Shown here piece after piece: positions 4,094-6,506 of a stretch of DNA of 64,000 nucleotides. Position 1 is the stretch's first letter. Each line of letters starts with the position of its first letter. The stretch lies in assembly GCA_004211785.1 (NCBI GenBank), contig SHBX01000001.1, positions 186,001-250,000 on the forward strand, read 5' to 3'. The translations under genes and the position numbers were made by a program. The notes below the pieces were generated by a model that was given only the letters and a program-made list of their open reading frames with translations, ran no database searches and was not told the DNA's origin. This stretch comes from Winogradskyella sp. (GTDB lineage: Bacteria; Bacteroidota; Bacteroidia; Flavobacteriales; Flavobacteriaceae).

Positions 4094-4447
4094 TTAAGCG
4101 TGGTAATAACGTTCGTTAATGATTTTACCATTTTTCCACTCAGTTCTATTGACTTGTTCAAACCTGTGGTGTTGACCATCATTTGTTTTAAATTCCATAA
4201 TTGCCTCGTAATACGATGTGTTTCCAGAAATCGAAATATTTTTTATATCATATTTAATAAATTCTGTTACAGTATCCAGTAATTCTTTTTCTGCATTTAA
4301 GGCCACTTCTTTACCAATTTTTGGGGTATTATTGGCCTCCTGCAGAATAACATTATCGTCTAAATACTTTTCCATTGCTTCTATGAACTTGCCTTTTCCA
4401 AGCAGTTCTTTTAAGTCTATAAGTGCATTTTCTATTGAATTATTCAT
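4094..4447 (-). CDS. SnoaL-like / NTF2-fold protein
   Basis: The 117-residue cytoplasmic-looking protein has the helix-rich N-terminus (FIEAMEKYLDDNVILQE), a central GKEVALNAEKELL and a beta-rich C-terminus (YEAIMEFKTNDGQ, FEQVNRTEWKNGKI) typical of the SnoaL/NTF2-like superfamily. Members are small cone-shaped ligand-binding proteins or isomerases, and this one cannot be assigned a substrate. It sits between the AhpD-like and cupredoxin genes in one minus-strand operon (gaps of 23 and 39 bases). Confidence 0.7.
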   Translation of the reverse strand: MNNSIENALIDLKELLGKGKFIEAMEKYLDDNVILQEANNTPKIGKEVALNAEKELLDTVTEFIKYDIKNISISGNTSYYEAIMEFKTNDGQHHRFEQVNRTEWKNGKIINERYYHA

Positions 4448-4470: not shown

Positions 4471-5019
4471 TTAAGCTGTTTCTAATTCTAATGGTTGTGC
4501 TAAAGGGAAATCTACAGGTACTTTTGTTGTATTATGGATATAGTTGGATATAGTTTTGTCCCCAACTAATGAAATTGTATCTATAAGATTTGCTTTTGTA
4601 TAGCCTGCATTAAAGAAGTTCTCTAAAACAGCTTCATTAGTTTTTCCTCTATTTTCAGTAATATTTTTAGCAAGTTTTGCTAAAGCATCTAATTTGTCAT
4701 TAACTGAAGAATAGCCTGCTCTTAACTCTAGTATTTGTTCATCTGTAAAACCGTTCATTTTACCAATAGCTGTGTGAGCAGACAAACAATACATACATTC
4801 GTTAACTTGGCTTACCGCAAGATTAACTACTTCTTTTTCTTTTGCAGAAAGGGATGTTTTTGCGTTAGCAAAATTCAAATAGTTTTCTAAGGCGGTATCA
4901 CTATATGCATAGGTTGCAAATAGGTTAGGGACAAAGCCAAGACCTTTGTTTAGATTGTCAAAAATAGCTTGGTTATTTGTGCTTACGTCTTCTCGTTTTG
5001 GAACATTAAATGTGCTCAT
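4471..5019 (-). CDS. carboxymuconolactone decarboxylase / AhpD-like peroxidase-related protein
   Basis: This 182-residue protein contains the AhpD-type redox motif NECMYCLSAHTAIGK (CxxC plus a downstream His), preceded by LSAKEKEVVNLAVSQ. This is the usual layout of CMD/AhpD-family alkylhydroperoxidase-like proteins. The cysteines suggest thiol-dependent peroxide reduction, although many members have no proven substrate. It is the first gene of the AhpD-SnoaL-cupredoxin operon. Its promoter region (5090-5154) carries an operator and -7 box arranged exactly like those in front of the 53-residue gene upstream, which points to control by the adjacent AraC protein. Confidence 0.85.
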   Translation of the reverse strand: MSTFNVPKREDVSTNNQAIFDNLNKGLGFVPNLFATYAYSDTALENYLNFANAKTSLSAKEKEVVNLAVSQVNECMYCLSAHTAIGKMNGFTDEQILELRAGYSSVNDKLDALAKLAKNITENRGKTNEAVLENFFNAGYTKANLIDTISLVGDKTISNYIHNTTKVPVDFPLAQPLELETA

Positions 5020-5055: not shown

Positions 5056-5072
5056 ACTGAAACGATTTCAGT
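5056..5072. repeat. 17-base perfect palindrome in the leader of the AhpD-like gene
   Basis: ACTGAAA-cga-TTTCAGT lies between the -7 box at 5090 and the ATG at 5019, inside the predicted 5' UTR. It could form an RNA hairpin (attenuator) or bind a dimeric repressor. A short T-run follows on the minus strand. Confidence 0.5.
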
Positions 5073-5089
5073 ATTACTTTTTGTTGGTA

Positions 5090-5154
5090 CAAAGTTGCTA
5101 CCATTTTGGGTATCGAGGAATGTTTGTTTTTCCTTTTAACTTGTCAATTATTCC
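5090..5154 (-). promoter_or_regulatory. promoter P2 of the AhpD-SnoaL-cupredoxin operon with AraC-type operator
   Basis: On the minus strand, GGAATAATTGACAAGTTA begins at 5154 and a -7-like CAACTTTG occupies 5097-5090. The distance from the first base of the operator to the first base of the -7 box is 57, identical to promoter P1 at 5346-5410. The operator matches P1 at 17 of 18 bases. Binding by the adjacent AraC regulator is inferred from this arrangement. Confidence 0.6.
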
Positions 5155-5157
5155 CTT

Positions 5158-5319
5158 TTATTTTTTACTACTTATATAAGGTTTTTCAGAATCACAATAG
5201 TAATCATGTATAGATTTGTGCTCACAATGTGTTGCTGCACTTATTGTATTAAGAATTCTTTTAGGAGTGCTTCTGAATATTTCTATTAAATTAAATATAG
5301 ATTTGTGTGTCTTTTTCAT
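5158..5319 (-). CDS. 53-residue Cys/His-containing peptide (small gene, not in ORF track)
   Basis: The minus strand reads ATG at 5319 to TAA at 5158, giving a basic 53-residue peptide that starts MKKTHKSIFNLIEIFRS and contains HCEHKSIHDYYCDSE. There is no signal peptide or membrane segment. Coding is supported by its own promoter (operator at 5410 and CATCTTTG at 5353), which is a twin of the promoter of the next operon, and by the gap it fills between the AraC gene and that operon. The Cys and His residues could bind metal. No family is recognised. Confidence 0.55.
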   Translation of the reverse strand: MKKTHKSIFNLIEIFRSTPKRILNTISAATHCEHKSIHDYYCDSEKPYISSKK

Positions 5320-5345
5320 CTTATTGTTGTTTTATAATTACAATG

Positions 5346-5410
5346 CAAAGATGCAATAGGAAGTAATTCTAAAAAATGAACAAATTGCCCAGTAACTTGT
5401 CAATTTTTCC
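5346..5410 (-). promoter_or_regulatory. promoter P1 of the 53-residue gene with AraC-type operator
   Basis: On the minus strand, GGAAAAATTGACAAGTTA begins at 5410, only 4 bases past the AraC stop codon, and a -7-like CATCTTTG occupies 5353-5346. It shares operator sequence and the exact 57-base spacing with P2. The -7 box departs from TAnnTTTG only in its first base, as P2 also does, which fits activator dependence. Confidence 0.6.
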
Positions 5411-5413
5411 TAA

Positions 5414-6253
5414 CTAAGAAATTTTTAATTGTTTTTTAAATTCAGAAGGTGATTGTGATGTGTGTTTTTTAAACAATCTACTTAAATGTGAAGCGTCGTC
5501 AAAGCCAACTTCGTAGGCAATCTCTTTGGCAGTTTTATCTGTATAAATCAAAAGTCGTTTTGCTTCTAAAACAATTCGCTCATGTATAATTTGGAGAGGG
5601 CTTTGATTAAGTTTTGCAAAGTTATTGGACAAAGTTTTTGGAGATTTAAAAAGCATATCGGCATAAAAACCAACACTATGTTCTTTTCTAAAATGCTGCT
5701 CTACTAAAAAATTGAATGAACGAAGTAAATCTACTTTAGAGCTTTTAGGAGTTTCTACAATACCGCTTTTTGCTTTTAATAAACGTGTACTTTTTATAAT
5801 AAACCGTGCCATGAGCATACGCAGCATTTCGGCTTGTATATTGTCTTTAGTCTCTAGTTCATCAATAAATACTTCGTGAAGTATCTCAAACTTACGTTGC
5901 TCAGTTTTATTAAGTGTAATAACAGGTATATTAGTATTACCAAAAAATAAAATACCAACACAGCTTACTTCTTGGTCATGATCTTTAATACAATAAAACT
6001 CACGATTGAATTGATAGATAATCGCTTCAGAATTATTAACAACCTGAAGGTATTGAATAGGTGTCAATGCCAAAATACTTTGAGGTTTTAAGGTAAAAGG
6101 AACACTATCTATAATTAATTCAATAGGCTCAGATTTTGCCCATATAAAAGTATAAAGCTCTGTTTGTTTTGGAGTTTCAAATGATTTTAGAACCTTTTGG
6201 TCATTAAGATAAAAGATGGCGTCAGTAGAAAATTCTTTAAATTGATATTGCAT
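5414..6253 (-). CDS. AraC family transcriptional regulator
   Basis: This 279-residue protein has a cupin-like N-terminal effector region and a C-terminal AraC helix-turn-helix pair: the first helix pair is around VGFYADMLFKSPKTLSNNF, and the second around TAKEIAYEVGFDDASHLSRLF with the signature KKHTSQSPSEFKK. It is cytoplasmic, with no membrane segment. Immediately downstream on the same strand lie two promoters with matching operators (5410 and 5154), so it is the obvious candidate activator of the 53-residue gene and the AhpD-SnoaL-cupredoxin operon. The effector is unknown. Confidence 0.92.
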   Translation of the reverse strand: MQYQFKEFSTDAIFYLNDQKVLKSFETPKQTELYTFIWAKSEPIELIIDSVPFTLKPQSILALTPIQYLQVVNNSEAIIYQFNREFYCIKDHDQEVSCVGILFFGNTNIPVITLNKTEQRKFEILHEVFIDELETKDNIQAEMLRMLMARFIIKSTRLLKAKSGIVETPKSSKVDLLRSFNFLVEQHFRKEHSVGFYADMLFKSPKTLSNNFAKLNQSPLQIIHERIVLEAKRLLIYTDKTAKEIAYEVGFDDASHLSRLFKKHTSQSPSEFKKQLKIS

Positions 6254-6332: not shown

Positions 6333-6506
6333 TTAAGCCACTTTTTTAAGTAAGTCAAAGCAAGGACACTTTTTGCAACGTTTGTGTTCTGCCTTTTTAT
6401 ATTTCTTGCAACATTTAGATTTGATTTTACCTAAAGCATCTAAACCAGAAGTCTCAAGTACTTTGATTCGCTCTTTCTTGAGTTTTTTATCTTTCTTTTT
6501 GCCCAC
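6333..6506 (-). CDS. 57-residue basic Cys-rich protein (small gene, GTG start, not in ORF track)
   Basis: The minus strand reads GTG at 6506 to TAA at 6333. The product starts (M)GKKKDKKLKKERIKVLE and ends in a Cys-rich, Lys-rich stretch (KCCKKYKKAEHKRCKKCPCF) with five cysteines and a His, suggesting a small zinc-binding or nucleic-acid-binding protein. A good -7 box TACTTTTG lies at 6530-6537, 23 bases upstream of the start. Position between the AraC gene and ferritin, together with the Cys pattern, argues for a real gene, but no family name can be given. Confidence 0.6.
   Translation of the reverse strand: MGKKKDKKLKKERIKVLETSGLDALGKIKSKCCKKYKKAEHKRCKKCPCFDLLKKVA

Follow-up and report, generated by a model that had tools for sequence, protein, structure and literature searches.

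A conserved two-promoter module with a predicted AraC-family activator and a new small protein in Winogradskyella and other Flavobacteriaceae

Gene organization of the locus

The stretch of 64,000 nucleotides of the Winogradskyella sp. genome that was analyzed here (the window) carries, on the minus strand, genes for an AraC-family regulator, a miniprotein, and AhpD-, SnoaL-, and cupredoxin-like proteins, along with two predicted promoters, P1 and P2:

3662..4054, minus strand: cupredoxin-like protein, 130 aa, with export predicted from a signal-like N-terminus; H85 and C117 invariant
4094..4447, minus strand: SnoaL-like protein, 117 aa; weak match to Pfam SnoaL, below the cut-off
4471..5019, minus strand: AhpD-like peroxidase-related protein, 182 aa, with an invariant CxxC-x3-H motif (C75, C78, H82)
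5090..5097, minus strand: P2 -7 box, CAACTTTG; 57-base spacing in 75 of 75 loci, predicted transcription start at ~5085
5119..5133, minus strand: P2 downstream half-site, GGAAAAACAAACATT, placed by the repeat register across loci
5142..5154, minus strand: P2 upstream half-site, GGAATAATTGACA, placed by pattern search and locus comparison
5158..5319, minus strand: miniprotein gene, 53 aa, with the conserved motifs SIFNLIEIF and HC-x5-HD[YF]YCDxExP
5346..5353, minus strand: P1 -7 box, CATCTTTG; 57-base spacing in 75 of 75 loci, predicted transcription start at ~5341
5375..5389, minus strand: P1 downstream half-site, GGCAATTTGTTCATT, at -48 to -34, 21 bp after the upstream half and overlooked in the earlier note
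5398..5410, minus strand: P1 upstream half-site, GGAAAAATTGACA, at -69 to -57
5414..6253, minus strand: AraC-family regulator, 279 aa, with an N-terminal cupin-like domain and a C-terminal HTH_18 domain

The HTH_18 domain of the regulator matches its Pfam family at 9e-23 (80.8 bits; cut-off, 33.6), which places the protein in the AraC/XylS family. Its N-terminal domain contains a C88-x3-H92-x5-C98 motif that is invariant among 89 aligned sequences. In the AF2 model (pLDDT of 84.6 overall), confidence is weak at residues 91-96, the loop with H92; the nearest folds are those of ToxT, Rns, and RhaR, and AdpA was also matched. Next to the ferritin gene at this locus, positions 6333-6506 contain a Lys- and Cys-rich open reading frame of 57 aa (KCCKKYKKAEHKRCKKCPC) that is conserved in many relatives.

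The AhpD-like protein matches Pfam CMD (1e-15) and the AhpD structure 6e8l in PDB (1e-19); with 54.7 bits against a cut-off of 27.8 for TIGR00778 (ahpD_dom), it belongs to the AhpD family, and it reaches 70 bits with TIGR01926 (peroxid_rel), just under the cut-off of 81.8. The cupredoxin-like protein scores just below the Pfam Cupredoxin_1 cut-off (1.8e-05, 25.1 bits against 27), and its H70 is kept in only 35% of the sequences. The SnoaL-like gene, which had been taken for a regular member of the operon, is missing in 23 relatives and present in 1 of 80 loci, and appears to be an occasional insertion or passenger. A close relative of this gene is found in another species, divergent to a gene for a paralogous AraC protein (L066:5894-7278), which suggests that the SnoaL gene moved between regulons. 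Related loci add other redox-type genes, including those for DoxX, thioredoxin, OsmC, and MsrA/MsrB. In three species (L049, L050, and L056), four conserved genes in a row, encoding proteins of ~502, 500, 314, and 471 aa, take the place of the cupredoxin gene downstream of AhpD.

Relatives of the cysteine-rich miniprotein are encoded at 212 loci in the GTDB genome collection. The median dN/dS of 0.155 over 142 pairs indicates that it is under purifying selection, and the residues kept are C32, H38, D39, Y41, C42, D43, E45, and P47. Searches of Pfam, NCBIfam, and PDB returned no family match, a search of PLSDB found no copies on plasmids, and AF2 gave no reliable fold (pLDDT of 59).

Operator and promoter architecture

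The earlier note described two nearly identical 18-mers as operators, each followed at the same distance by a -7 box. Both are found on the minus strand, GGAAAAATTGACAAGTTA at 5393-5410 for P1 and GGAATAATTGACAAGTTA at 5137-5154 for P2, identical at 17 of 18 bases, and the spacing of 57 bases from operator start to -7 box is exact for both promoters. The twin sites are thus real, but the 18-mer covers only the upstream half of a 21-bp tandem repeat. The full operator unit is a direct repeat, GGAAAAATTGACA-N8-GGnAAnnnnnnCATT, that spans positions -69 to -34 and whose downstream half-site follows the pattern GG-A------CATT. The 21-bp register gives 7.99 matches out of 13, compared to 6.07 for the neighboring register of 20 bp and 4.66 for the best non-adjacent shift. 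Since the flavobacterial -7 box lies at -12 to -5 (PMC9723704), the two halves of the repeat occupy -69 to -57 and -48 to -34, with predicted transcription starts at ~5341 and ~5085. The AraC gene does adjoin the first operator, with three bases (TTA) between its stop codon (ending at 5414) and the operator; in most relatives, its TAG stop codon overlaps the first G of the P1 operator.

In a pattern search against shuffled sequences, the window contained only these two operator sites, even with 3 mismatches allowed; 0.34 sites are expected in a shuffled window, and two or more were seen in 6 of 100 shuffles. A genome-wide search for the tandem pattern gave two perfect matches, both at this locus; the closest others carry 3 mismatches. 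Taken by itself, the window would leave room for chance or a small duplication as the source of the likeness between the 18-mers.

Both -7 boxes read CA(T/A)CTTTG, so that the standard Bacteroidota sigma-A promoter (TAnnTTTG with a TTG at -33) is not matched, while its AnnTTTG part is kept. The mismatch at the first position of the -7 box, which the earlier note read as a sign of activator dependence, is conserved: this base is C or G, and never T, in all 152 promoters compared. It is nevertheless a weak argument and a weak case for an unusual base as such, because C is common among the background NAnnTTTG matches in these genomes (T, 90; A, 79; C, 45; G, 18). Better arguments for the predicted activator dependence are the position of the operator and the absence of the -33 element: a TTG at -33 (spacing of 17 to 23) is found in 1 of the 152 promoters, against 15.9 +/- 3.8 in shuffled sequence.

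AraC/XylS-family activators, such as AraC at araI, recognize 21-bp direct repeats that adjoin the -35 element. Judged by its sequence, the operator layout described here would be that of an AraC-family activator binding beside RNA polymerase. The AraC family includes both repressing and activating modes, and a conserved operator is silent on the sign of regulation, so the AraC protein might bind both sites and mostly repress, or switch from repressor to activator like AraC itself. This is unlikely, however, as each site ends before its -7 box and, with the -33 element missing, basal promoter strength should be low, leaving little to repress.

The P2 leader contains an inverted repeat (ACTGAAATCGTTTCAGT, 5058-5074), and many relatives, though not all, have hairpins of unlike sequence near the corresponding position. 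A riboregulator at this position was considered and dropped, since the hairpin is without a counterpart in many relatives.

Conservation of the module

Orthologs of the AraC protein (76-99% identical) are encoded in 23 genomes of the genus, and in 22 of these relatives the order is the same: AraC, operator, -7 box, miniprotein, second operator, -7 box, and AhpD. Of the 24 genus genomes with the AraC ortholog (that of the window included), 23 contain exactly two matches to a 65-bp pattern that combines operator, spacing, and -7 box, and the remaining one contains a single match; among the 23 close relatives, 22 have exactly two sites per genome and no others. The reversed pattern, used as a control, had no matches in 60 genomes. 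Close relatives, to which the earlier note had looked for a possible refutation, thus retain the twin sites, and because operator, spacing, and -7 box are all kept, chance is excluded. Two genomes show single-site variants. G012 lacks the miniprotein and AhpD genes, and its single site precedes the cupredoxin gene with the 57-base spacing kept; in G059, a member of another family, the one site lies in the order AraC, operator, AhpD, isochorismatase-like gene, and thioredoxin.

A wider comparison used the best 80 of the 212 miniprotein loci in GTDB genomes, which were therefore picked for carrying the miniprotein. These loci come from Winogradskyella, Psychroserpens, Aquimarina, Algibacter, Hyunsoonleella, Tamlana, Bizionia, Muricauda, and other Flavobacteriaceae. 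In an operator search without a spacing rule, P1 operators were detected in 75 of the 80 loci and P2 operators also in 75, and the distance from operator to -7 box was 57 in all 150 of them. In Muricauda-type loci (L131, L151, L164, and L167), the AraC protein is diverged (43-50%) and the upstream operator is altered, the 57-base spacing is kept, and no second promoter was found.

Linkage of the operators to the AraC-family regulator

Co-occurrence was evaluated in 201 genomes from 200 genera, with AraC orthologs defined by a score of >400 bits: 27 genomes had both site and AraC ortholog, 1 the site alone, 1 the AraC protein alone, and 172 neither (Fisher 3e-31, uncorrected for relatedness; as the species are related, the counts are not independent events). 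Most sites adjoin the AraC gene, and co-occurrence is partly a matter of linkage. In the site-only genome, G195, a more diverged AraC protein (368 bits) is encoded 208 kb from the site, so the link between site and regulator there would be in trans.

The linker bases of P1 and P2 are more alike within than between genomes (z of 6.9; 2.3 inside one clade). No such within-genome likeness is seen for the spacer to the -7 box (z of 0.9). Agreement in the linker but not in the spacer favors a shared protein over gene conversion and points to one protein that reads both sites. It also weighs against the view that the twin sites arose simply by a recent tandem duplication, that gene conversion has maintained them, and that two promoters are not needed. 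P1 and P2 are indeed alike in sequence and plan, and some genomes (G012 and G059) have a single site, but the pair has been kept over many genera with differing downstream halves, which makes this explanation the least credible of those considered.

Paralogous AraC proteins with the Cx3Hx5C motif are associated with similar tandem sites, again 57 bases from a -7 box, before genes for MsrB, SnoaL, or AraC-like proteins. In two instances (G000:C53:48611-49432 and L063:898-5436), the paralogous AraC gene lies beside genes for MsrB, MsrA, and thioredoxin-like, glutaredoxin-like, and FAD disulfide reductase proteins; such a locus is likely a second module for oxidative stress and has a tandem site of its own at the 57-base spacing. 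Such similar sites of proteins with the same sensor motif, and several Aquimarina loci where an AraC gene next to the operators was not detected, would fit the idea that another protein, such as a paralogous AraC protein encoded elsewhere, is what mainly binds the twin sites. This is quite improbable given the nearly one-to-one co-occurrence with the orthologous AraC protein, and the paralog sites differ in core (ATGTATA-type versus TTGACA) and use the canonical TAnnTTTG as -7 box. Predicted regulation by the local AraC protein is well supported by the comparative data. The earlier proposal of one regulator and two promoters in a redox module gains support from the conserved sites and spacing, the co-occurrence with AraC, the within-genome likeness of the operators, and the redox-type targets.

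Proposed mechanism

The AraC protein (5414-6253) is most likely a dedicated local activator of both P1 and P2 that acts through the 21-bp repeat in an antioxidant module. An AraC dimer would bind the direct repeat, from -69 to -34, at both promoters, P1 driving the miniprotein gene and P2 the AhpD-(SnoaL)-cupredoxin operon. With the downstream half-site in the place of the missing -33 element, bound AraC would be able to contact the sigma-A polymerase, and the fixed 57-base spacing would hold the two in register. Residues C88, H92, and C98 are a probable sensor of an oxidant or a thiol-reactive metal. The targets may repair or clear damage, with AhpD providing thiol peroxidase chemistry inside the cell and the cupredoxin acting in the periplasm; the miniprotein could be a Cys/His redox or metal-binding partner. 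That the AraC protein binds, that it activates rather than represses, what it responds to, and what the proteins do are all inferred; for an oxidant or metal as the signal, the grounds are the redox-type neighboring genes and the analogy with RclR (PMC7464077).

Comparison with known systems

The module resembles those of AraC/XylS activators in having an HTH_18 domain, an N-terminal cupin-like domain, a tandem repeat by the core promoter, and adjacent targets. It differs from AraC at araI in its Bacteroidota -7/-33 type of promoter, in having two promoters of identical fixed geometry, in the 3' end of the regulator gene that abuts or overlaps the first operator, and in the lack of sugar-type targets.

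RclR of E. coli is an AraC-family HOCl sensor with N-terminal Cys21 and Cys89 (PMC7464077). The AraC family, N-terminal cysteines, and a dedicated local redox operon are common to both systems, but the motif here is C88-x3-H92-x5-C98 and the targets are AhpD and a cupredoxin rather than RclABC. The NCBIfam RclR equivalog model did not match the AraC protein of the window at E of 0.01, and the paralog from L063 scored 17 bits with that model, against a cut-off of 400. The AhpD-like protein shares with the AhpD/carboxymuconolactone decarboxylase family the CxxCxxxH core and an AhpD core domain above the cut-off; unlike in that family, its gene does not lie beside AhpC. In the literature searched, no paper on an AraC-miniprotein-AhpD module was found, and none that directly assigns an operator to an AraC activator of flavobacteria.

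A more tentative possibility, which we put somewhat below even chances, is that these AraC proteins are thiol- or metal-sensing activators that form a flavobacterial subfamily not described before (defined by FYCIxDHDxEVSC), each paralog running its own antioxidant operon (AhpD-cupredoxin, Msr, or OsmC), at least two of them via a tandem operator exactly 57 bases from the -7 box, and that the 50- to 58-residue proteins with HC-x5-HD[YF]YCDxExP are miniproteins of a new type that have a redox or metal function and act together with AhpD.

As far as sequence comparison can tell, the locus represents a real, strongly conserved two-promoter module of marine flavobacteria, predicted to be activator controlled, with a new small protein. 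It brings to light a conserved miniprotein family that is missing from the family libraries searched. With its precise operator consensus, its fixed geometry, and a regulator linked to it nearly one to one, the module also makes activator-dependent transcription at the -7/-33 promoters of this phylum directly testable.
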